From Fretibacterium sp. (GTDB taxonomy: Bacteria; Synergistota; Synergistia; Synergistales; Aminobacteriaceae): a stretch of 41,790 nucleotides of DNA. Below, piece after piece: positions 7,583-19,836 of the stretch (its first letter is position 1; the number at the start of each line of letters is the position of its first letter). Made by a program: the position numbers and the translations under genes. Where the stretch lies: contig JAAYOR010000164.1 of NCBI GenBank assembly GCA_012520235.1, forward strand, positions 1 to 41,790, written 5' to 3'. Below the pieces are notes generated by a model. It saw only the letters and a list, made by a program, of their open reading frames with translations, was not told the origin of the DNA and did no database searches.

Positions 7583-10500
7583 TCAGGTCCGCTGAGATTG
7601 GGGCGGGTTGGCTTCGTCCTCGTCCGGTTCGCTCATGGCCTCGTAGAGGCCCCGCACTCCGGCCAGCCCGCCGGGCCCCAGGGCCTGGTCGCCCAGCACG
7701 GTCCAGGTGCGCAGAGCTTTCAGCCTGGGGCCCAGCTCCTTCAGATCCCCAGATGCGCGTGTTTCACTGCGGGTGATGGAGACGGAGCGCAGCCCGTAGG
7801 CGGCTCCGCAGTTGCGCAGGGCGCTCTGGGCTATCAGCAGCTTCACCGGGTCGGGGAGCGGCCCGAACCGGTCGGTTATCTCGTTTGCAAGGGCCGCAAA
7901 CTCGTCCATCCCGATGGCCTGGAGCAGACGCCGGTACAGGGTGACACGGACCCCCTCCTGCGGGATGTAGAACTCGGGGATGGAGCCCGCCCGGTCGAAG
8001 GAGACCTCCACCTTGGCGATGCTCCCGCCCCTCAAGCGCGTCAGCTCCTGCTCCAGCATCCGATAGAAGGAGTGGAAGCCGGCCCCACGGCTTACCCCAT
8101 GCTGGCGTGAGCCTCCTATCTCGCCCCCGCCCCGGATGTCGAGGTCGCGCCGTGCGATAGCGTAGCCCGAGCCGAGGTCCGTCAGAGTGGAGATGGCCTC
8201 AAGGCGGTCGGCTGTCTCTCGGCGCAGCTCCTCCTTCTCCGGGTAGAAGAAGTAGGCGAACCCGTTTTCTTCCCTGCGTCCCACGCGCCCGCGGAGCTGG
8301 TACATCTGAGCCAGCCCCAGCTCCTGAGAGTCGTCCACGATAATGGTGTTGGCGCGCCCCACGTCCAGCCCGCTCTCGATGATTGTGGTGCAGATGAGGA
8401 TGTCCACGTTGCCGCTGTAAAAATCCAGCATCGTCTTCTCCAGCTCTCGCTCCGGCATCTGCCCGTGGGCCAGGGCGATGCGTGCGTCGGGGAAGAAGGC
8501 AGCCAGCATCCGCTGCTGGTCCTCCATACGCGCGATTCGGTTGACAACAAAGTAGACCTGTCCCCCGCGAGTCAGCTCGTGGGTCACGGCTTTGCGCGCC
8601 AGCGAGGCCCGCCACGGACCGGCGAAGGTGGTGACCGGCAGGCGGTTGACGGGCGGGGTCTCCAGGAGTGAGAAGTTCCTCAGGCCTCTCAGGGCCATCG
8701 CCAGCGTGCGGGGTATGGGGGTGGCCGAGAGGCTGAGGATGTCGACAGCCTTGTGGGTGTTCTTGAGGTTCTCCTTGTGCATCACTCCGAACCGATGCTC
8801 CTCGTCGACGACCAAAAGCCCCAGGTTCCGGAACTCCACCCCTTTCTGAAGAAGCTTGTGGGTACCTATCAGGATATCAAGGGTCCCATCAGCCGCGCGT
8901 TCCTTCGTGCGCCTGGCCTCGGTCCGGGACACGAAGCGTGACAGGAGCCCCACGGAGACGGGGAAGCCCGAGAGACGCGACTGAAAGGTGGCGTAGTGCT
9001 GCTGGGCCAGGATGGTGGTGGGGACCAGGACGCAGACCTGACGGCCCGCGACGACTGAGCGGAAGGCGGCGCGCAGGGCGACTTCCGTCTTGCCGAACCC
9101 CACGTCGCCCACCAGAAGTCGGTCCATCGGGAAAGGCCCGGACAGGTCCTCCATGATCTCGCGCACCGCCTTGAGCTGGTCCGCCGTCTCCGTGTGAGGG
9201 AAAGCTTCCTCAAAGGCGGCGTAGAGCTCGCCCCCTTCCGGCAGGGGATCGCGGCGCTCCAGCTCTCTGCGGGCAAAAATCTCCACCAGAAGGCGCGCCT
9301 CCTCCTCCGCACGCTTCCGGTCCCGCTCCTGGGACTTGCGCCAGCGCGTGCTCTTCAGGGAGTCCAGCACCGTCTCATCGCTCTCGTGCTCGGCCAGGGG
9401 TGTCAGCTTGTGGGACTGCATGACGGGGATAAGCAGGCGTTTTTGTTCTGCAAATTCGATGGTCAGCGCGTCCAGAGTCTCGCCTCCGGTTGCGATCTCT
9501 TCAATGCCCCGAAAGATCCCCACCCCGTAGTCCTCATGGACCACCAGCTGCCCGCTTGCCAGCCTCTCCCGCCACTCCTGGGGGGCGTGCCACTCCATGG
9601 AGAACGAGGCTGCGGAGACGCCCGAGAGCTCCCGGTCGGAGAGGAAAGCGCGGCGCCTTGCGCGGTCGGCGAACCCGGAGGAGAGGCGTCCGGAGCACAG
9701 CTCGACGAAGGGCAGCGCGGAGAACGGCCCGGACTCCCGATCCAGAAAACGCGGGTTCGTCGAAAAGAGCGTGATGGTGTAGTCCTGTTCGTGCAGGCTG
9801 TGGCATAGGCGGAGGACGTTCAGGAAATCGCCCCGGAAGGGCGGCAGGCTGTCGATGTCCAGCTGGGCCTCCGTCAGCTCCAGGTTCCGGGTCAGCCTCA
9901 GGCGGGGCAGTCGGGCCAGGAGGGCAAAGAGCTCGTCCCAGTGGGGGATGGGATCCACGCGGATCTCCTGGCGCAGCTCCTCCCAGAGCCAGTGGAAGGA
10001 CAGAGCCTGGCCTTCTATCTTCTGCGGGTCGAAGAGCAGAAGGCGAGTCCCCTGGGGAAGCAGGTTCGCAGGGCTTGAGGGCGTCGCGCCGGCCACGCTG
10101 TGCAGCTCAATGGAGTCCAGCTCCGCCGCGCTCTTCTGGGTGGAGGGATGGAAGGAGCATATCCGCTCCACGGCCTCGTCAAAGAACTCGAAGCGGAGTG
10201 GCAGAGCGTAGGCCGGGTCGAAGACGTCCAGGATGAAACCTCGGGCCACGTAATGTCCCGGCGACCACACCAGGTCCGACCTCTGGTAGCCGCTGCGATC
10301 CAGCCAGTCCAGCAGGCGGTCGCGCGCGTAGGACTCCCCCTTTTTGATGGGCAGCTCCCCCTCGCCCAGCAGGCAGGGGGGCATCAGAGCGCCGGGGGTC
10401 GCGACCAGAAGGCCGCCCTCCCGGAGCCACTGCTGCATCGTCTCGCCCCTCTGGAGGGCCAGGGGCCGGCTTCCGATGGTCTGAATTGTCAGGGGTGGCG

Positions 10501-10717
10501 CGTTCAGAAGATGGGCGGACCGGTCGGGGAACAGGGTCCGGTGGTCTGACAGGAGTTCGGTTGCCTGCCGGGCGTCCGGTAGTAAGGCCAGGATAGGGCC
10601 CTCAGGGCATATCCAGGCACGGGCGGCGCCGCCCGCCCGGTCATGGACGGAGCCGCCGCCCTGCCAGAGCGCCCCCAGCTCCTCAAGGTTTCCCACAGTG
10701 ACGCGAACACCGCTCAA
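7583..10717 (-). CDS. mfd: Transcription-repair coupling factor
   Basis: Mfd displaces RNA polymerase stalled at DNA lesions and recruits UvrA. The 1044-residue protein has a UvrB-like N-terminal region, an RNA-polymerase-interacting domain beginning 'GQLVVHEDYGVGIFRGIEE', then RecG-like translocase motifs: Walker A 'GDVGFGKTEVA' (about 536-546), 'DEEHRFGV' (about 637), 'SATPIPRTLAMALRG', and motif VI 'QLRGRVGRR'. The C-terminal TRCF domain ends near 'DRFGPLPDPVKLL'. The frame is open to 10867, but that stretch crosses the terminator at 10877-10909's flank and a promoter. TTG 10717 follows AGGGAGG (within 10721-10730) at seven bases and is the best start; GTG 10786 is an alternative. The N-terminal region is somewhat short for the family. 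Confidence 0.95.
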   Translation of the reverse strand: MSGVRVTVGNLEELGALWQGGGSVHDRAGGAARAWICPEGPILALLPDARQATELLSDHRTLFPDRSAHLLNAPPLTIQTIGSRPLALQRGETMQQWLREGGLLVATPGALMPPCLLGEGELPIKKGESYARDRLLDWLDRSGYQRSDLVWSPGHYVARGFILDVFDPAYALPLRFEFFDEAVERICSFHPSTQKSAAELDSIELHSVAGATPSSPANLLPQGTRLLLFDPQKIEGQALSFHWLWEELRQEIRVDPIPHWDELFALLARLPRLRLTRNLELTEAQLDIDSLPPFRGDFLNVLRLCHSLHEQDYTITLFSTNPRFLDRESGPFSALPFVELCSGRLSSGFADRARRRAFLSDRELSGVSAASFSMEWHAPQEWRERLASGQLVVHEDYGVGIFRGIEEIATGGETLDALTIEFAEQKRLLIPVMQSHKLTPLAEHESDETVLDSLKSTRWRKSQERDRKRAEEEARLLVEIFARRELERRDPLPEGGELYAAFEEAFPHTETADQLKAVREIMEDLSGPFPMDRLLVGDVGFGKTEVALRAAFRSVVAGRQVCVLVPTTILAQQHYATFQSRLSGFPVSVGLLSRFVSRTEARRTKERAADGTLDILIGTHKLLQKGVEFRNLGLLVVDEEHRFGVMHKENLKNTHKAVDILSLSATPIPRTLAMALRGLRNFSLLETPPVNRLPVTTFAGPWRASLARKAVTHELTRGGQVYFVVNRIARMEDQQRMLAAFFPDARIALAHGQMPERELEKTMLDFYSGNVDILICTTIIESGLDVGRANTIIVDDSQELGLAQMYQLRGRVGRREENGFAYFFYPEKEELRRETADRLEAISTLTDLGSGYAIARRDLDIRGGGEIGGSRQHGVSRGAGFHSFYRMLEQELTRLRGGSIAKVEVSFDRAGSIPEFYIPQEGVRVTLYRRLLQAIGMDEFAALANEITDRFGPLPDPVKLLIAQSALRNCGAAYGLRSVSITRSETRASGDLKELGPRLKALRTWTVLGDQALGPGGLAGVRGLYEAMSEPDEDEANPPQSQRT

Positions 10718-10792
10718 GAGCCTCCCTCCCTCTTTGAACAGAAGACCGCTATTTGAAACCAGGCGCTTAAGATTCTGATTGCTCACCAAAAA

Positions 10793-10801
10793 AGTATAGC
10801 A
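10793..10801 (-). promoter_or_regulatory. Extended -10 promoter for mfd
   Basis: The minus strand reads TGCTATACT, an extended -10 element with hexamer TATACT at 10798-10793. Transcription would begin about 10786, giving a leader of about 65 bases to the TTG start at 10717. This position argues against any start further upstream. Confidence 0.55.
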
Positions 10802-10876
10802 TTTTCCCCGTGAAAACCCTGAGCGTCTCACGAAAAACCCAACAAGAACCTGACAAAAACTCAACAAGAACTCAAT

Positions 10877-10935: not shown

Positions 10936-13900
10936 TTACCTCCGCCGAAGGAAGAGAGTGACTGCAGCCAGGAGCATCAAGCCGGAGAGACTGGCGTTGC
11001 AGCCACCACCACCGCCTCCGTCTCCGCTACCGCCTCCGTCTCCGCTACCGCCGCCCGAGCTACCCCCGGATGTGTCGACACTCTGGCGCTTGAGCAGCCA
11101 CAGACTCCCGGAGATGGAGCTGTCCGGCACACCGTCCGGGATGACCAGGATCCCGTTGATCACCTGAGGCTTGGCGTTCTGCAGAGAGCCGGCGACGTTC
11201 TGCGAAGATCTGGTGAAGCTTGCCTCGGACACCGGAAGGTTGCCCATGTGGGCGTTCAGGATCAGGGTCAGGCCTTCACTCGTGCTCATCAGTATAAGGG
11301 CGGAGGAGGAAGCGGCGCGGAGCACGGTGTCCCCATCGCCGATCAGGGTGTAGAATCTGCCTTCGGCGTCCTGGAAGGAGATACGGAGGTTCTTGAAGAG
11401 CTCAGAGGTCGTCACGTTCGTCGTGCCGGTGACGGTGCGGCCCAAGAGCCCGCTGACCTCAAGCCAGGACAAGGTCCAGCGATACTGAAGGGGCATCAGA
11501 GCGCCGGGTGTCTGACCGGGAAGAGAGAACTTGATGGAGGGCTTTATGGCGACCCAGATGTCCTGGAACAGGCCCTTGGGCAGCTCGTTGGTTGGGGCGC
11601 TGGAGAAATCCGGAATCCCGGTTTGAGCCTGGGAGGGGTCAAAGCCCCACCAGGATTCTTTGAACTTCTCCTTGAAGGAGGGCGCGTCAATCCCGGGGTC
11701 TGCCTCTTGGATGTCGAAGCCCATGTCGTAGGGAGCAAGCACCTGGTCGTTGAAGACGCCGAGCTGGGGCCAGACTTTGGGGTGTACGTTGGTATCGGTC
11801 AGGTCTCTGTGGACAGTGAGCTCTGCAGAGTCCGTGAGTCGGCCGTCCTCCGTGGAGACGGAGATGATCGTTGTGCCCCTGGTGAGCGAGACCAGGTGGC
11901 CGTTTTGATCGATACGCGCCACATTGGGTCTGCTGCTCTTCCAGACGACAGGCACGCCCGGCATGGGTTTTTTGTCCTGACCGTAGACGACTGCGACAAG
12001 GCTTGTGGTGTTACCGATCTGTGTCATGGTGTTGGGGATCTCGCTCATCACGATGGAGCCCACGGTCGGTTCATCTTCATCAGGCGGCAGGGCACCGCTG
12101 ACCGACTCAAAGGCCCCGACGTCGTAGTAGCCTCTCGGGTAGGGTTGAGGCCTATCGAGTCCGCGCGCGTCAAAGGGGGGCTTGCCCTCATTTGAGGGGA
12201 TCTGGTTCAGGGCGGGGTTGGGCCTCTGGGTCTGGAGCGCGACGGTCTGCAGGTACTCCTGTACTCCGCCCGCTATAGTCGAACCCACGAGAGGCGGTTT
12301 ACCCGTTTCAACGATATTGTCCGCCAGGGTGTGGGTCCCGAACATGTCCACGGCCTTGACGCCCTCTTCGTCCTTCCCCGTGCCCCCCGTGACGTTGGGG
12401 TCGGTCCTCCAGCGCGCGGGGACGGGGTTGCCGCCCGGGCCGCGGTGCCCGTAGAGCTCCAGACGGTTGTAGCCGCCGGAGAATATCCTGACCCCGGTGT
12501 CGGCGAAGAGGTCGTGGCCGACTTCGGCCTCGTTGCCCGCAAGGGCCGTTGCGGTGATGGTTAGAGGCCCTGCTTCGACGTAGATTCCGCCGCCCAGCCC
12601 CTCCTTATCGATGGGCTCGGCCTTGTTGCCGGTGAAGGTGTTGTGTCTCAGGGAGGACTCCCCCCTAAGGTAGAGGGCGCCGCCCAGACCGTCGCCCTGG
12701 AAGCTGCTGACCGTGTTGCCCACAAAGGTGCAGTTGATGAGGGTTGCCTTGCCGCCACTCGTTTCGGGATCCATGGTCATGGCGCCGCCCTTTCCTGAGT
12801 TGAGGGAGGTGGGGGAGGTGTTCACGGAGTTGTAGGCGAAGGTGGAGGAGCTTATTGCACCGGTTCCCTGTACGAAGATTGCTCCGCCGCCCAAGTGTGC
12901 CTCAAGGACCTGGTTACCGGAGAAGACGGAATCCTCCACAGTCAGGAGAGAGGCTGGGTCATTGCTCTGGTAGTAGATGGCACCACCCTCCTCAAGGGCC
13001 CTGTTGCCCTTGAAAAGGCAGCGCTTGATCTCGCCCTCAATGGCTCCGGAGGACTGGAGGTTCACGGCGCCGCCCCACGTTGCCTCTTTGTTGGTCTCTG
13101 CGGAGTTTTCAAGGAAGGAGCTATCCTCAAGTACCAGCTTGCCGCGGGTAGCGAGAGCGCCGCCGTTCTTTTTTGCGCTGTTTCGATTGAAGGCGCTGTT
13201 CATCACGGTGGCAGCGCCCTCACTGTAGGCAGCTCCGCCGGAGCCTTGCAGGTGAGTGACTTCGTTGCTATCCAGCAGGGAGTTCTTCAGCTCTATGGAC
13301 CCAAAGGAATACAGAGCGCCGCCGAACATCCGGGCACTGTTACGGGTGAAGACGCCTTCGTCCACATCAATGTGGGTCTCAGCGTAGATCGCACCGCCGG
13401 AGCCATTTTCGTCAGTGACAGCCTCGTTGGCCTCAAAGATGGCGTCGCCTGTCAGCTCTGCTTCGCCCTCCGTGTAAATTGCCCCGCCATGCTTATCCGC
13501 CAGGTTTTTCCTGAAGGCGCCTCCGGTGACAGAGGCGTTGCCCCTGCTGTAGATCGCACCGCCGGAGTTACCGGCTTTATTCCCCTCAAAGTCGCCGTCC
13601 GTTACCTGAACGTCGTTTTCCGTGTAGACCGCACCGCCGTCTGTTGCTGCCGTATTCGTATCGAACTCTCCGCCCGATATCTCCACCCTGCCGACTGCGT
13701 GAACCGCTCCGCCGGTTCCATTGGAGACGTTGTCGATGAATTCCATGGCGCCGGAGGAGGTGAAACGGCCGCCTGTGTAGATCGCACCGCCTGCGTCAGT
13801 CGCCCTGTTGGTCTTGAAGGTCAGGGTTGCCGAGCCCTCAGGCTTAAGAGTGAGGTTGACAGCGTAGATCGCGCCGCCGTTTTGACTCGCGGTGTTGCTT

Positions 13901-14916
13901 GAGAACGAGGTGTCGGTTTTAAAGAAGACGTTCGTGCCGTCCTCAAGATGGAGGGCCCCTCCGTTGGTGGCGGTGTTGCCGGATATCGTGCTGCCGCTGA
14001 AGGTCGCTTCGGCAGAGGAGATGAGGGCGAGAGCTCCGCCCTCGACCGCATTGTTATTTGTGAAGGTGACTGTCTTGGGGAAATCCACCTCGGCGCCGTT
14101 CAGGAAGATCGCACCGCCCTTGTTGTCGGCGGTGTTTTCGGTGAAGAGGACGGTTCCCTCAAAGCGGGTCCCATTTCCTGAGATACGGAGTGCACCGCCC
14201 CTGTTGCCCCTGTTTTCGCGGAATTCGCCACCGACGAAGGTGACGGTCCCGCCCTGGATGTTCACCGCTCCCCCGTCGCCGGTGTTGGCGGTGTTTTCAG
14301 TGAAGGTAGCTCCGTTAAAGTTGGCTTTGCCCGAGGACATCACGTTGACTGCGCCACCATCTTTGCCTGCCTGGTTGTTGGAGAAGAAGGTCCCGTTGAA
14401 GGTGGCGGTTCCGCCCTGAATGTTTACCGCTCCTCCGGCTCCTCCGGCACCGGGGGCCTGGTTGTTGGAGAAGGAGGTTCCGTTGAAGGTGGCGGTCCCG
14501 GCCTGGATGTTCACCGCTCCTCCGGCGAGGTTTTGGGAAAAACTGCCGCTCTCAAAGGTGACATCCGAGGCGTTCTGGATGTTTACCGCTCTCCCATTAT
14601 TGGCATTGAGGAAGTCCACGTTATCAAAGGTGACCCTTGCCCCGGATACGGTGAAGATGCTGTTGCTCCCGCTTAGGTGGTTGCCGTTTCCCGTTATGCG
14701 CACCGGTCGGCCAATGGTAAGGACAGAGGGGAGGTGGATGTTGTTCGTCAGGTTGATATCGCCGCTGGTGGGGTCTGCCAGGGCCGCCTGCAGCTCCATA
14801 AAATTACCGACTGACACATCAGCCGCGCCGGGGAGCGCGGGACAGAGGGTCAGCAACAGGAGCAGGAAGAGAAAGAGAAAATTTTGCGTTCGTTTTTTCG
14901 GCTTCGTAAAGCTCAT
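10936..14916 (-). CDS. Large secreted parallel beta-helix protein with Ig-like domain and Synergist-CTERM tail
   Basis: The 1326-residue protein has a signal peptide (basic 'KPKKR', then an F/L-rich core, cleavage near residue 32). About 850 residues of short repeats follow, of the type 'GGAI/GGAV...NxA', each ending in a 'F..N' turn, typical of polymorphic-membrane-protein-like right-handed beta helices. A bacterial Ig-like (BIG2) domain follows ('VWKSSRPNVARIDQNGHLVSL', in part; about 950-1060). Near residue 1283 begins a Gly/Ser/Asp linker ending 'GGGGCNA' (Cys 1306), a hydrophobic segment and a final 'RRR'. No autotransporter barrel is present, so surface anchoring probably depends on this tail. 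It lies 20 bases after the companion gene, with GGAGG before ATG 14916. Adhesin or cell-surface display is likely; the ligand is unknown. Confidence 0.85.
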   Translation of the reverse strand: MSFTKPKKRTQNFLFLFLLLLLTLCPALPGAADVSVGNFMELQAALADPTSGDINLTNNIHLPSVLTIGRPVRITGNGNHLSGSNSIFTVSGARVTFDNVDFLNANNGRAVNIQNASDVTFESGSFSQNLAGGAVNIQAGTATFNGTSFSNNQAPGAGGAGGAVNIQGGTATFNGTFFSNNQAGKDGGAVNVMSSGKANFNGATFTENTANTGDGGAVNIQGGTVTFVGGEFRENRGNRGGALRISGNGTRFEGTVLFTENTADNKGGAIFLNGAEVDFPKTVTFTNNNAVEGGALALISSAEATFSGSTISGNTATNGGALHLEDGTNVFFKTDTSFSSNTASQNGGAIYAVNLTLKPEGSATLTFKTNRATDAGGAIYTGGRFTSSGAMEFIDNVSNGTGGAVHAVGRVEISGGEFDTNTAATDGGAVYTENDVQVTDGDFEGNKAGNSGGAIYSRGNASVTGGAFRKNLADKHGGAIYTEGEAELTGDAIFEANEAVTDENGSGGAIYAETHIDVDEGVFTRNSARMFGGALYSFGSIELKNSLLDSNEVTHLQGSGGAAYSEGAATVMNSAFNRNSAKKNGGALATRGKLVLEDSSFLENSAETNKEATWGGAVNLQSSGAIEGEIKRCLFKGNRALEEGGAIYYQSNDPASLLTVEDSVFSGNQVLEAHLGGGAIFVQGTGAISSSTFAYNSVNTSPTSLNSGKGGAMTMDPETSGGKATLINCTFVGNTVSSFQGDGLGGALYLRGESSLRHNTFTGNKAEPIDKEGLGGGIYVEAGPLTITATALAGNEAEVGHDLFADTGVRIFSGGYNRLELYGHRGPGGNPVPARWRTDPNVTGGTGKDEEGVKAVDMFGTHTLADNIVETGKPPLVGSTIAGGVQEYLQTVALQTQRPNPALNQIPSNEGKPPFDARGLDRPQPYPRGYYDVGAFESVSGALPPDEDEPTVGSIVMSEIPNTMTQIGNTTSLVAVVYGQDKKPMPGVPVVWKSSRPNVARIDQNGHLVSLTRGTTIISVSTEDGRLTDSAELTVHRDLTDTNVHPKVWPQLGVFNDQVLAPYDMGFDIQEADPGIDAPSFKEKFKESWWGFDPSQAQTGIPDFSSAPTNELPKGLFQDIWVAIKPSIKFSLPGQTPGALMPLQYRWTLSWLEVSGLLGRTVTGTTNVTTSELFKNLRISFQDAEGRFYTLIGDGDTVLRAASSSALILMSTSEGLTLILNAHMGNLPVSEASFTRSSQNVAGSLQNAKPQVINGILVIPDGVPDSSISGSLWLLKRQSVDTSGGSSGGGSGDGGGSGDGGGGGGCNASLSGLMLLAAVTLFLRRR
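11015..11050. repeat. Two perfect 18-bp tandem repeats in the glycine linker
   Basis: cctccgtctccgctaccg occurs at 11015-11032 and again at 11033-11050. It encodes the repeated Gly-Ser-Gly-Asp-Gly-Gly linker before the sorting tail and could change in copy number by slippage without breaking the frame. Confidence 0.85.
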
Positions 14917-14936
14917 CTTGTTTCCTCCAGTCTTCT

Positions 14937-16892
14937 TTACCGGGCGTTCGTTTTTTTTCTATTCTTCCTCAGGAGCAGGAGGACCCCCAGAACCCCTGCG
15001 CCCGGGCCCGCGTTGCAGCCGCCACCGCCGCCGTCCGGCTTGGTCGGCTGTACGATGACGACGGGGGGCGTCTGCCCCGAGTCGGGCACGCCCCTGGCCG
15101 GCGCGGTGTAAAAGGTCATCCTCCACTTGTTGTCAGACTGCCCGTCCCTCAGGACGATGTAGTCGTCGTTCGTATTTTCGGTCTTGTCCTTCACTATTCT
15201 GATGGCGGGTTGGGCGCCGTTGCGCGTGCCGTCCATCATCATGGCGATGAAGCTCACCGTGATCCTCTCATACCGTTCGTCCAGGAATACCTTCATTGCT
15301 GAATTGTAGACGCCCAGATCCTGGAGCTCCCGGATCAGGTCCAGGTCGTTCTGGCTGCCGCTGCGCAGGTAGACGCTGAAGTGCCGGGCGAACTCGCTGT
15401 GGATGTTGCCCGTCTCGTGCCATTTCTTCAGGAGCTCGTTCCACCTGGGGGCCAGGAGCAGGTCCGTGCGGGGCAGGTTGAAGGTGATGTGCAGCGGCAA
15501 CAGCCCTTCCCCGCCGAAGGGGAGGCCTCCGGGGATGGGAACGTCGACGGCGAAGGAGTTTGGAGACTCGGCGGAGACCTGGTGGAAGCCGACTGTGCCG
15601 GACGAGAGGATGGGCGCCGTGGGCATCCCGACGGATTGAGCGTGCATGGCCCTGGCGACGTTTTCAAGGAAAGTACGCCCACTTGCCGGGATCAGGCGAA
15701 AAGCCGTCACCCGGTAGTTTTGGAAAAGAGCTTTGGAGAAGACCGTTCCCAGATCGACGCCTTTGATGATGCGGTGCGACAAGGTCAGGTTGCGGAGAAG
15801 ACTCGCTTCATCAGACATCCCCTTCTCTTCCCCCTCATACGTCTCCTTCGCAGGATCCACGGGAGAGAGGTACAGGGGGATCTTACCGCCCTCAAGCATG
15901 TTGAAGGAGTGTCGGTAGACCGTCACCAGGCCCGGTGCGATGTGGCTCATCTCGGCGAGCTGGAAGTTTTTGGGTACGCCGAGCATGGGAGGGAGGTCGA
16001 AAGCCCAGTGAATGGGGATGAGAGGTAGCGGGGCGTCAAGGGTATCGTAGCGCCCTACCTGATAGCGGATGCCCGTGTAATTGACCACCTCGGTGGTCAG
16101 GGGGTAGTTGACGCGAGAGGGGGATGGTGATGGCTCCCAAGAGGACATGGGTACAAACACCCACTGGCTCTCTCCCGTCGTCTTATGGTCCTTTGTGTTC
16201 CATGTGAAACGATCGTATGCCGTGATGTTCCCTGCCTGGTCGCGCAGAGTGGCGCGGAAGAGCAAAGGATAGTACCTTGCTGTGCCGAAGTACACGTTGG
16301 CTATGACGAGGGGGACGTTAAGAGTCTGGGAAGGCTTGCCGCTTGGGTTCTGGTGAAAACTGAAGTTACCCCGCGTGGTGCCGAAGCTGGAGTCGGCGGT
16401 TTTGTTGAGGTGAAGCAGGTAAAGCTTGCCGATGTCCCCCGGATTGGAGGGCAGCGGGACTTTTTCAACCTTATAGACTGAGCTGTCCACGTTAACGTCG
16501 GGTGTGGTGGGAGGGGTTGTCGGAGTCATCGGGGTGCGGGCAAAGTTGACGTACATTCGCCCGTAGGTGCCGGGTAGCACCAGGAACATCGTATGGATTT
16601 CCCGCTCGCTCAGCTCCAGAGGGGTGTTCGAGTTTCCGTTATGGATGGTGACGGGGCTACGTCCGTCCACGATGTCGCCCTGCACGTCCAGGGGGAGGGG
16701 CTCCATGGGGCTCTCCTTGAGGTTTACCGTGGGATCCCCCACAGTCTCAGAGCCTCCTCCGGTGACGATCATCCACTGCGCGTTCGCGCCACTGGGGCCG
16801 TAGACATCGTCAAATTGATAGTCTGCCCGGGCAGCCCCGGAGAGCAGAAAAAGCAGAACCGCTGCTGTGCCCAGAAGTTTTTTCTTTGACAC
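14937..16892 (-). CDS. Secreted protein of unknown function with Synergist-CTERM tail
   Basis: This 651-residue protein begins with a signal peptide ('VSKKKLLGTAAVLLFLLSGA', cleavage near 'ARA-DYQ'). The body lacks a domain I recognise: it is beta-rich, with Pro/Thr-rich patches ('TPMTPTTPPTTPDVN') and several 'PLPLIPIHWAFDLPP'-like hydrophobic segments. The C-terminus is 'DGGGGGCNAG' (Cys 626), a hydrophobic run and a basic end, the same tail as in the downstream neighbour. GTG 16892 has GGGAGG (16900-16905) seven bases upstream, so the 42 residues before it are rejected. The two genes, 20 bases apart and ending in one terminator, form an operon and may produce partners on the cell surface. 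Confidence 0.8.
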   Translation of the reverse strand: MSKKKLLGTAAVLLFLLSGAARADYQFDDVYGPSGANAQWMIVTGGGSETVGDPTVNLKESPMEPLPLDVQGDIVDGRSPVTIHNGNSNTPLELSEREIHTMFLVLPGTYGRMYVNFARTPMTPTTPPTTPDVNVDSSVYKVEKVPLPSNPGDIGKLYLLHLNKTADSSFGTTRGNFSFHQNPSGKPSQTLNVPLVIANVYFGTARYYPLLFRATLRDQAGNITAYDRFTWNTKDHKTTGESQWVFVPMSSWEPSPSPSRVNYPLTTEVVNYTGIRYQVGRYDTLDAPLPLIPIHWAFDLPPMLGVPKNFQLAEMSHIAPGLVTVYRHSFNMLEGGKIPLYLSPVDPAKETYEGEEKGMSDEASLLRNLTLSHRIIKGVDLGTVFSKALFQNYRVTAFRLIPASGRTFLENVARAMHAQSVGMPTAPILSSGTVGFHQVSAESPNSFAVDVPIPGGLPFGGEGLLPLHITFNLPRTDLLLAPRWNELLKKWHETGNIHSEFARHFSVYLRSGSQNDLDLIRELQDLGVYNSAMKVFLDERYERITVSFIAMMMDGTRNGAQPAIRIVKDKTENTNDDYIVLRDGQSDNKWRMTFYTAPARGVPDSGQTPPVVIVQPTKPDGGGGGCNAGPGAGVLGVLLLLRKNRKKTNAR

Positions 16893-17128: not shown

Positions 17129-19180
17129 CTAGGGGCGTCTCCGCCTCCGTCTCTCGGACCTCTCGGTTCTCGTGGTTCTTGTGGTGCGGAAGGACCGTTC
17201 CCTCTGCTCCGGCTGGGCCTCGGGCTCCTCCGGCCGGGGCTCCGGCTCCGGCTGAGCGCTCTCAGGCTCCTTTTCAGGTTCGGCTGAACGAGGCTCGGGC
17301 TGAAGCCTTGCGGCCTTCAGGCGGGCCGCGGCCGTCAGCAGCGAGGCGTGCCCCAGGGGGTGGAGCGAGGCGGAGCCGGCAAAGGCGGAGAGGACCCTGC
17401 GGGCCAGGTCAAGGTACTTTCTTTCGCCCAGGGCGACGCCGAGCGACGTCAGCCCCAGGACGGCCAGGGCGTTGGCCGAGGGTACGGAGCTGTCGAAGGC
17501 CGATTTGAGTCGGATAAAGAGGTTGGGGTCGTCCGCCGGGGAGAGGAAGAAGCCCCCGTGTTCCTCGTCGTGGAACTCCTGAACCAGTTTTTCCGCCATC
17601 GTCTCGGCAAAGCGCAGCCAGTCCTTCTGTTGCTTGCGCCCCTGCCCTTCGGCGGCGTCGTGAAGCTCCATGGCAGCCCACAGAAAGGCGGCGTAGTCGC
17701 CCGCCAGGGCAGGGACTCCGGAGAGCCCCTTGCGGTAGCTCCGCCGCCAGTTCCCCTTGGGGTCGGGCAGGGTCCTCTGCAAAAACAACATCGCCTTCTC
17801 GGCTGCGAGCCGCCAATCCGGGTGCTCAAAGACTCGGGATGCCCGGGCCAGGGCGCCTATCATCAGGCCGTTCCAGTCCATCAGGACCTTGTCGTCAAGG
17901 GTGGGTGGGGTGCGGCGGGAGCGGGCCTCCAGCAGGACGCGCCGGGCCTCTGCCAGCTTCTCCTTGACCTCCGGCAGGCGTATCCCGTAGCGCCGGGCCA
18001 GCTCGGTCGGGGTCGCGGCTTCATAGAGAACGTTGCGGCCGGTGGACATGCCGGTCATCCGGTGCCCGAAGTTCCCGCCCGGCATGACAGCGTAGGCAGC
18101 GCAGAACAGGCCGGAGGTTCCGGTAGGCAGAAGGTCGCGCAGCTCCTCCTCCTGCCAGAGGTAATAAGCGCCCTCGCCGTCCTCGCTGTCCGCGTCGAGA
18201 GCGGTGTAAAAGCATGAGTTGGGGGAGAGGAAGTCGCGCAGAGCGCAGTTGGCAGCGTCCTCGGCCAGAGTCCTGTAAAATTCGTCCGGACGCAGCTCGT
18301 GGGCTGCTGCCGCAGCCAGGAGGACCATCGCCTGGTCCGCAAGGACCTTCTCGAAGTGGGGCACGATCCAGCGCTCGTCCACGGCATAGCGGGCAAAGCC
18401 GCCGCCCAGCTGGTCGTGGATGCCGCCGCGCCAGAGGCTCCTCAGAGTGAGGTCCACCATGGAGAACGCCTCGTCCCGCTCGTCGGAGGAGTGCAGGGAA
18501 GAGGTCGACTGCTCCAGCAGAAAGAGCAGCCGGGGCACCGCCGGGAACTTTGGGGCAAACCCAAAGCCCCCCCACTGGCTGTCGAAGGTGTCCCGGAGGT
18601 CCTTGAGCCCGTCCCGGATCGGCATGTTCCCCAGATAGCCGCCCTGAAAGAAGTTCATGTGGGCCTTAAGGGTATCGGCCAGCTCCCGGGCCCCGCGCAG
18701 GACGTCCTCGTTCTGTATATTCCACAGCCACTTGACGCGGGGCAGGATATCGGTCATGCCCGGCAGCCTGCCGATGGTCCGCTTGGGCAGCCAGGTCGCG
18801 GCGAAGAAGGGGAGTCCGTCGGGGGTGAGGAAGAGGCTGAGAGGCCAGCCGCCGCTCCCGTTCTGGATGCGGCAGATATCCATGAAGAGGGCGTCGATGT
18901 CCGGGCGCTCCTCGCGGTCCACCTTGATGGAGATGCAGGTGTCGTTCAGCATCTCGGCGACCTCAGGGTCCTTAAAACATTCGCGCTCCATCACGTGGCA
19001 CCAGTGGCACGAGGAATACCCTATGGAAAGGAAGATGGGTTTGTTCACGCTCCGTGCCCATTCAAAGGCCTCGCTGTTCCAGGGGAGCCAGTCCACGGGA
19101 TTGGAGGCGTGGCGCAGCAGGTAGGGGCTGTTTGAGTCTTTCAGCCGGTTCATGCGGTCTGTGCTCTTGAGGTTTATCAA
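17129..19180 (-). CDS. DUF255 thioredoxin-fold / six-hairpin protein (YyaL, spermatogenesis-associated protein 20 family)
   Basis: The 683-residue protein shows the family start 'NSPYLLRHASNPVDWLPW', the thioredoxin-like 'GYSSCHWCHVMERECF' with a CxxC pair, 'IKVDREERPDID' and 'GWPLSLFLTPDGLPF', then an alpha/alpha-toroid region as in six-hairpin glycosidases. The biochemical role of the family is not firmly known. TTG 19180 follows AAAGGAG by eight bases and lies five bases after the stop of the HAD gene, indicating coupling; ATG 19153 is the alternative. An open frame extends to 19708, but this is the HAD gene read in another frame. The last 60 or so residues are an unusual Pro/Glu-rich tail ending in a run of Arg. 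Confidence 0.85.
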   Translation of the reverse strand: MINLKSTDRMNRLKDSNSPYLLRHASNPVDWLPWNSEAFEWARSVNKPIFLSIGYSSCHWCHVMERECFKDPEVAEMLNDTCISIKVDREERPDIDALFMDICRIQNGSGGWPLSLFLTPDGLPFFAATWLPKRTIGRLPGMTDILPRVKWLWNIQNEDVLRGARELADTLKAHMNFFQGGYLGNMPIRDGLKDLRDTFDSQWGGFGFAPKFPAVPRLLFLLEQSTSSLHSSDERDEAFSMVDLTLRSLWRGGIHDQLGGGFARYAVDERWIVPHFEKVLADQAMVLLAAAAAHELRPDEFYRTLAEDAANCALRDFLSPNSCFYTALDADSEDGEGAYYLWQEEELRDLLPTGTSGLFCAAYAVMPGGNFGHRMTGMSTGRNVLYEAATPTELARRYGIRLPEVKEKLAEARRVLLEARSRRTPPTLDDKVLMDWNGLMIGALARASRVFEHPDWRLAAEKAMLFLQRTLPDPKGNWRRSYRKGLSGVPALAGDYAAFLWAAMELHDAAEGQGRKQQKDWLRFAETMAEKLVQEFHDEEHGGFFLSPADDPNLFIRLKSAFDSSVPSANALAVLGLTSLGVALGERKYLDLARRVLSAFAGSASLHPLGHASLLTAAARLKAARLQPEPRSAEPEKEPESAQPEPEPRPEEPEAQPEQRERSFRTTRTTRTERSERRRRRRP

Positions 19181-19185
19181 GGCAG

Positions 19186-19836
19186 TCACTCCTTTTCCGT
19201 TCCGTCCCGTACCAGGGAGAGAAGCTCTGTAAGGCTGTCGATGGTCCGCCACGCGCCCAGCTCGGAGAACTGCTCCCGGGTGAAGTAGCCCCTGGTGATG
19301 CCGATGGCGCGCACTCCTGCGGCGAGGGCGGTTCGGATGTCGATGTCGGAGTCGCCCACGTAGGCCGTCTCGGAGCAGGGGACCCCGAAGTGCTCCATGA
19401 GAGATTCGATCATCGCAGGATGGGGCTTGTGGGGCACCTTGTCCGCTGGCCCGAGGATCGTTCCGGGGTCGAAGTAGCGGGCTGTGTTGGATTTTTCCAT
19501 GGCGCGATGAGGATCCTGACGGTTCGAGGCCACGCCGAGATGGACGCCCATCTCCCTCAGGCGCGTCAGGACGGGACCGGTCTCTGGGAAGGCGTGGATA
19601 TGCTCGAACTCCAGAGGGGCCACCTTTTGGCGGTAGATGTCCAGCCATTCGGGCCGGCACTCGCCAAAGAGCTCCTCCATGAACTGGGTCAGGGGCATGG
19701 CGATGCATCGCATGACCTGAGAGTGATTTGCATGGGGTTTGCCCACCACGTCGGCCAGCAAATTGACCCCCGCCAGGATGGCGTCGCTCGAATCGACAAG
19801 GGTCATGTCGTGGTCGAAAATCAAAAGGTTGATCAC
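19186..19836 (-). CDS. HAD-superfamily phosphatase, phosphoglycolate phosphatase-like
   Basis: The 216-residue protein carries all four HAD motifs: 'DHDMTLVDS' (nucleophile and acid/base Asp), 'GVASN', the 'HKPHP' lysine, and 'VGDSDIDI' with the metal-binding acidic residues. A helical cap lies between motifs I and II, as in subfamily I phosphoglycolate phosphatases and beta-phosphoglucomutases; the substrate is not predictable. GTG 19836 is preceded by GAGGAG (19844-19849), a strong site, so the 12 residues upstream from ATG 19872 are rejected. It is the first gene of a two-gene minus-strand unit with the DUF255 protein. Confidence 0.85.
   Translation of the reverse strand: MINLLIFDHDMTLVDSSDAILAGVNLLADVVGKPHANHSQVMRCIAMPLTQFMEELFGECRPEWLDIYRQKVAPLEFEHIHAFPETGPVLTRLREMGVHLGVASNRQDPHRAMEKSNTARYFDPGTILGPADKVPHKPHPAMIESLMEHFGVPCSETAYVGDSDIDIRTALAAGVRAIGITRGYFTREQFSELGAWRTIDSLTELLSLVRDGTEKE

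Follow-up and report, generated by a model that had tools for sequence, protein, structure and literature searches.

Two tailed proteins at one locus

A stretch of DNA of 41,790 nucleotides from Fretibacterium sp. (Synergistota; GenBank assembly GCA_012520235.1, contig JAAYOR010000164.1; hereafter the window) carries on its minus strand two adjacent genes for secreted proteins, P2 and P1, that share a C-terminal tail with a glycine-rich cysteine motif. Its contig, C104, is part of a 2.33-Mb genome (G000) with a completeness of 98.9% (G, C and L numbers are our handles for genomes, contigs and loci, and f and g numbers for families and genera). Our data point toward P1 and P2 being surface proteins that are probably sorted by the Synerg-CTERM/MrtS pathway, with the participation of a divergent homologue of Lgt, which we name Lgt-CC, and a type II secretion system (T2SS). 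The features in question are as follows.

10936 to 14916, minus strand: P1, a secreted protein of 1326 amino acids (aa) with a Gly-rich linker and a C-terminal Cys tail (open reading frame and family scans)
10939 to 11013, minus strand: Synergist-CTERM tail of P1, with Gly-Gly-Cys-Asn-Ala, a hydrophobic stretch and Arg-Arg-Arg (TIGR04564, 25.9 bits, and leave-out profile)
12103 to 12249, minus strand: choice-of-anchor Q stretch within P1 (20.1 bits, below the cut-off of 25)
14937 to 16892, minus strand: P2, a secreted protein of 651 aa with a beta-rich model and a C-terminal Cys tail
14958 to 15029, minus strand: Cys tail of P2 (leave-out profile match; not reported by TIGR04564)
16824 to 16892, minus strand: signal-peptide-like N-terminus of P2, recognized by eye
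17129 to 19708, minus strand: upstream thioredoxin-domain gene, with an Arg/Glu-rich C-terminus of its product

P2 comes first and is separated from P1 by 20 nucleotides (nt); it starts with GTG at 16892, and P1 with ATG at 14916, and the starts are preceded by the Shine-Dalgarno-like sequences GGGAGG and GGAGG, respectively. Both N-termini are signal-peptide-like, and both C-termini follow one plan, Gly-rich-Cys-Asn-Ala, a hydrophobic stretch and basic residues (GGGGGGCNASLSGLMLLAAVTLFLRRR in P1 and GGGGGCNAGPGAGVLGVLLLLRKNRKKTNAR in P2). That two neighboring secreted proteins carry the same tail, and that the tail is of the Synergist-CTERM kind, had been claimed in a first-pass annotation, and both statements hold. 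A profile built from 12 other tails of the genome, with P1 and P2 excluded, was tested among 363 background C-termini and found P1 with an E value of 4.4e-7 and P2 with 2.0e-6, the best other frame reaching 0.0071; judged by their sequences, the resemblance of the two tails exceeds chance. The curated model TIGR04564 (Synergist_CTERM; cut-off of 22.5 bits) gave 25.9 bits for P1 when the genome was searched in six frames and 18.2 bits in an hmmscan of the whole protein, and no match to P2 in either search. The match to that model expected at first pass therefore stands only for P1 and only in the six-frame search. Since the score of P1 straddles the cut-off and P2 is unmatched, TIGR04564 by itself would leave the pair unconfirmed, and as the leave-out profile does find P2, we describe it as working like a Synergist-CTERM protein rather than filing it under TIGR04564. 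Both proteins have the elements of the design, i.e., Gly-Cys, a hydrophobic stretch, a basic end, a signal-peptide-like N-terminus and a host in the Synergistota, a phylum to which the relatives named for 80 of 80 kept loci also point. The genome-wide tail search that had been suggested lists 16 tails with a wider profile, in the building of which the tails of P1 and P2 were included. Across the aligned tails, Gly-Cys shows no variation (31 of 31), a count that is partly circular, since the rows were chosen as tails.

Homologues of P2 are present in 68 of 185 Synergistota genomes, and all 11 that were fetched (L172-L182; the P2 of the window not counted) have kept the Gly-rich Cys tail. Downstream of P2, a GGA-repeat protein was found in 15 of 16 fetched stretches, and it has a Cys tail in 14 of the 16 (10 recognized by a script pattern and 4 by eye); in L190 the repeats lack a tail, and the stretch of L192 does not reach far enough for a decision. 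Because the tails and the gene order are kept in the homologues, P2-P1 has the appearance of an operon with two tailed products rather than of chance neighbors. Hence, the earlier idea of a tandem operon survives in so far as the pair is conserved and operon-like; it is not the sole tandem, as three tailed proteins stand in a row on contig C18 (L013, G000:C18, 2-5561).

As to the proteins themselves, family scans revealed 12 stretches of the Chlamydia-type POMP repeat (GGA-I/V) and, furthermore, Big_2-like stretches in P1. No Pfam or NCBIfam family matched P2. Its predicted structure (mean predicted local distance difference test [pLDDT] score of 70) gave weak Foldseek matches to multi-domain beta-sandwich proteins, including surface adhesins and pilins, with template modeling (TM) scores of 0.09-0.18 by query length; the model suggests a beta-rich fold, and we draw no more from it.

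MrtS, the tails and type II secretion in Synergistota

A membrane peptidase encoded outside the window had been expected to process the tails, and a candidate for such an enzyme is indeed encoded in the genome: mrtS lies on another contig (G000:C62:1496-2047), and its product, the sole PF02517 (CPBP) protein of the genome, scores 232.3 bits against NF040589 (cut-off of 130). The CPBP motifs EExxxR, FxxxH and HxxxN are present in 41 of 41 aligned MrtS rows. MrtS is predicted to be a CPBP (Rce1-like) glutamic protease and is the predicted Synerg-CTERM peptidase of NCBIfam, which would cleave the tails of P1 and P2. Across the 185 genomes, MrtS is above the cut-off in 125 and TIGR04564 matches in 136; 122 have both, 3 only MrtS, 14 only the tail and 46 neither (Fisher p 3e-27). 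The test and the counts treat related genomes as independent, and therefore, the p-values overstate the number of independent events. In the 76 genomes with a completeness of at least 97%, the corresponding numbers are 53, 2, 2 and 19, and one of the MrtS genomes in this set without a TIGR04564 match (G098) does have tails, missed by that model. The Synerg-CTERM/MrtS pairing agrees with the NCBIfam prediction and is already known, not new; it was reportedly described by Haft in 2024 in J Bacteriol. In family f11 (G002-G004), CPBP proteins score 94-100 bits, below the MrtS cut-off, and LspA is present.

The genome also has a T2SS cluster, located by tblastn on contig C160 (L201), in which gspD has gspE, gspF, gspG and a gspK-like gene as neighbors; its GspD scores 363.1 bits against TIGR02517 (cut-off of 351.35). 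For the comparison, genomes were taken as GspD positive above the cut-off (115 genomes) or, in 13 more, below it at E <=1e-60, several of these genes being broken by contig ends. In the 76-genome set, MrtS and GspD are both present in 54 genomes, MrtS only in 1 (G080), GspD only in 2 (G002 and G143), and neither in 19; these 19 have weak secretin matches at most, presumably to the type IV pilus secretin. With the cut-off alone and all 185 genomes, the numbers are 104, 21, 11 and 49. In sum, a genome of the 76-genome set has, with few exceptions, either all or none of MrtS, the tails and the type II secretin, an observation that is new here. MrtS, strong GspD and the tails are jointly lacking in genera g3 and g6 (family f1), g28 and g29 (f6), and g33, g38 and g52 (f8) and in all of families f3, f9 and f10, which, judged by genus labels, suggests several separate losses.

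Closer inspection of gene order revealed a physical linkage in some lineages. In 9 of the 108 genomes compared (G007, G009, G010, G126, G128, G129, G135, G136 and G140), mrtS lies within 8 kb of gspD, where 0.8 would be expected from a rough uniform placement on a 2.3-Mb genome, with kinship and contig breaks ignored. In G126, G128 and G129, gspG adjoins mrtS, and in G135 and G136, mrtS heads a run with a pseudopilin, a GspK-like protein and a PDZ protein that reaches gspD.

Lgt-CC and genes near mrtS

A search with PF01790 gave 141 Lgt-positive genomes at E 0.001, two of them (G123 and G165) below the cut-off. Each matching genome has one Lgt-family gene, with two only in G040 and G120, and a second paralogue beside a normal Lgt was thereby ruled out. 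In the 76-genome set, MrtS and Lgt are both present in 55 genomes, MrtS only in none, Lgt only in 6 (G002, G004, G030-G032 and G143), and neither in 15; that is, 15 of the 21 MrtS-less genomes also lack Lgt.

The active site of this Lgt is altered. Among 40 of the 143 Lgt matches that were aligned, 36 are of the CC type, with the motif R-x-G-C-x3-G-C-C; none of them has His in the catalytic column, which we take to be that of His103 in E. coli Lgt, Cys replaces the Asn and the Glu of canonical Lgt in 36 of 36, and the Arg of GRxG is retained in all 36. The remaining four rows comprise G002, G004 and G005, which belong to the outer families f11 and f12, together with the additional copy G120b; they show His (4 of 4), Asn (4 of 4) and Glu (3 of 4). 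Within f11, Lgt is thus canonical in G002 and G004, G003 being outside the alignment. A profile of 23 Lgt-CC sequences matched E. coli Lgt (5azb) over its full length with an E value of 1.3e-27, the Cys residues falling on Asn and Glu of GRLGNFINGE. The Lgt-CC of G000 reaches 73.1 bits against the canonical model TIGR00544 (cut-off of 118.9 bits). Seven of 8 Lgt-CC proteins are below that cut-off and one is above it (G021, 124.7). The canonical Lgt of G002 exceeds it with 223.9 bits, and so does the non-CC copy in G120, with 127.6. The full-length match and the retained Arg connect Lgt-CC with the Lgt-LspA pathway, whereas the lost catalytic His, the Cys in the Asn and Glu columns and the low scores set it apart. 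Similar GCC-type Lgt homologues may exist elsewhere; among plasmid records, 362 of which had an Lgt match, none of the 5 fetched was of the CC type.

In two genera, lgt adjoins mrtS, at distances of 75, 149 and 90 nt in G007, G009 and G010 (f2) and of 331 and 231 nt in G140 and G149 (f8); in G077 (f1), it is about 1.8 kb away. Furthermore, 8 of 112 genomes compared have lgt no more than 8 kb away from gspD.

LspA (PF01252) was matched in 45 of the 55 genomes of the 76-genome set that have both MrtS and Lgt. The 10 others (G025, G026, G029, G100, G101, G119, G126, G128, G129 and G169) belong to six genera and three families. Counted over the whole set, Lgt and LspA are both present in 47 genomes, Lgt only in 14, LspA only in none, and neither in 15. 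LspA of Synergistales is divergent and scores low, with NxAD-type Asp motifs visible by eye in the aligned rows. In the part of the lspA distances to gspD that was covered, lspA at G140:C62 6020-6400 and at G149:C69 3659-4036 is 412 and 2597 nt away; LspA of this genus is likewise inside the T2SS cluster. A lipobox scan of the 91 open reading frames in the fetched stretches of G000 gave 2 candidates, both doubtful by eye, a sample too small to judge ordinary lipoproteins.

Directly downstream of mrtS, a family of secreted proteins of about 366 aa, A1, is encoded in 89 of 125 genomes, with a median gap of 53 nt (L010 2111-3211 on G000:C62), and this arrangement was met in two distinct surroundings. 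A1 had no match among Pfam families, NCBIfam families or PDB sequences, and an assignment as an S55/SpoIVB peptidase, made from a remembered motif, was dropped, as no search supports it. For its model (pLDDT of 88.9), the top VIA match is Pgp2 (6xj6; Z of 4.0, root mean square deviation of 4.1 over 103 residues), and there is no Foldseek match in PDB at E <=0.001; we do not claim a new fold. Since A1 is widespread (159 of 185 genomes), including many genomes without MrtS, it was kept out of the proposed pathway. Three or four A1 paralogues are present in G170-G172 (genus g52, without MrtS) and in G121. In 13 of 41 loci (L010 1181-1495 and 12 more), each of them from family f1, the gene before mrtS encodes a small membrane protein of about 104 aa.

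Around the P2-P1 pair, the upstream thioredoxin-domain gene presumably encodes a YyaL/DUF255-like protein, and the gene preceding P2 homologues elsewhere likewise has a product with a charged C-terminus, as seen by eye. Directly downstream of P1 lies mfd (window 7583-10867; named by eye); in other Synergistota, an mfd-pth-L25-prs-glmU run leads into the fur-mrtS-A1-glmS region.

A proposed sorting pathway for the tail cysteine and its rivals

The genome holds the tails, an mrtS gene with the catalytic motifs, a T2SS cluster and Lgt-CC, which co-occur in the phylum and are linked in some lineages. In our model, P1 and P2 would be exported by Sec, and the C-terminal hydrophobic stretch would keep them anchored in the inner membrane, so that the Cys faces the periplasm. 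Lgt-CC, which we propose as the lipidating enzyme, would put a lipid on this Cys, MrtS, as an intramembrane protease, would remove the hydrophobic tail, and the T2SS would bring the protein with its lipid to the external side of the outer membrane. Cleavage, lipidation, the order of the steps and the surface location are inferred here from comparative evidence; the lipid modification of the Cys, already considered at first pass, is plausible. It is imaginable, and we put it forward tentatively, that a mirror image of the N-terminal lipoprotein pathway operates at the C-terminus in Synergistales, with a Cys-based Lgt-fold enzyme that lipidates a Cys close to that end, MrtS instead of LspA and the T2SS instead of the Lol route, which would be the sole lipoprotein pathway left in lineages that lost LspA.

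Several observations speak against such a role of Lgt-CC or against a strict coupling of the components. Of 119 genomes compared, 110 do not have mrtS and lgt together on one contig at a distance of 15 kb or less. G029 has MrtS and GspD and no tail by either model, and G143 has a tail, GspD and Lgt and no MrtS above the cut-off. The three genomes of genus g3 (G030-G032, 99% complete) retain Lgt-CC although MrtS, strong GspD, tails and LspA are all missing, and therefore, the enzyme serves, or once served, some other purpose. In genomes that have LspA, it may simply act on ordinary lipoproteins, and as LspA of Synergistales scores low, some LspA counted as absent may be missed. Finally, MrtX cleaves MYXO-CTERM in E. 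coli according to Guo et al. 2025 (PMC11980579), and hence, a dedicated acyl-transferase is not always needed.

Some of these points would fit a different scheme, in which MrtS cuts without prior lipidation, the new C-terminus is held by another group or the protein is released, and Lgt-CC is simply the ordinary Lgt of the phylum, its co-occurrence with MrtS reflecting the joint loss of envelope systems. The function of MrtX in E. coli without demonstrated lipidation of the tail, the co-occurrence of Lgt with LspA and the retention of Lgt-CC in g3 are consistent with this scheme. However, the 10 MrtS genomes without an LspA match still keep Lgt, several lineages have Lgt beside mrtS or inside the T2SS cluster, and the Gly-Cys of the tails is invariant, with the circularity mentioned above; we consider the scheme rather unlikely. 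It is improbable that the tails are plain membrane anchors that stay uncut while MrtS acts on other substrates: our literature searches turned up no title on cleavage in Synergistota, but tails and MrtS co-occur nearly one-to-one, and MrtS is akin to MrtX, whose cleavage was demonstrated. Processing by a rhomboid of the rhombosortase type, as in GlyGly-CTERM and as the first-pass annotation had suggested beside other membrane peptidases, can hardly be upheld despite a Gly-rich motif, a hydrophobic stretch and basic residues that look alike by eye, since rhomboids were found in 0 copies in G000 and in 6 of 185 Synergistota genomes by a search that was positive in 14 of 14 control genomes. To our knowledge, GlyGly-CTERM has no Cys requirement.

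The proposed Lgt-CC/MrtS/T2SS route has close relatives among known systems. Synergist-CTERM (TIGR04564) with MrtS (NF040589) shares the tail design and the phylum with P1 and P2, and differs in that P2 is not reported by TIGR04564 and that links to the T2SS and Lgt are outside the NCBIfam names encountered. GlyGly-CTERM/rhombosortase has a similar Gly-rich tripartite tail and, per PMC11980579, T2SS export, whereas its protease is of the rhomboid family. MYXO-CTERM/MrtX, as far as described there, shares the invariant Cys, the hydrophobic stretch, the basic end, a CPBP protease and the T2SS, on which its sorting depends; its tail motif and NCBIfam protease family are different. The acyl-transferase acting ahead of the myxosortase is given in that text as unidentified, with Lgt as the leading candidate. 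For MYXO-CTERM, a T2SS and an Lgt-like enzyme had thus already been put forward by Guo et al. 2025; our candidate is named for Synergistota only. Among the literature titles searched, none concerned an Lgt/tail link, a T2SS linkage or a CC-type Lgt in Synergistota. The near-joint occurrence of MrtS, tails and T2SS, the T2SS linkage and the CC-type Lgt of Synergistota are new here, although part of this may already be in print, possibly in the 2024 work of Haft.

In sum, Synergistota offer an independent natural experiment, in which an Lgt homologue with an altered active site travels with MrtS, the tails and the T2SS. With Lgt-CC, there is a single gene whose deletion can be tried and a single modification to look for, and the question of how the tailed proteins are anchored becomes testable.

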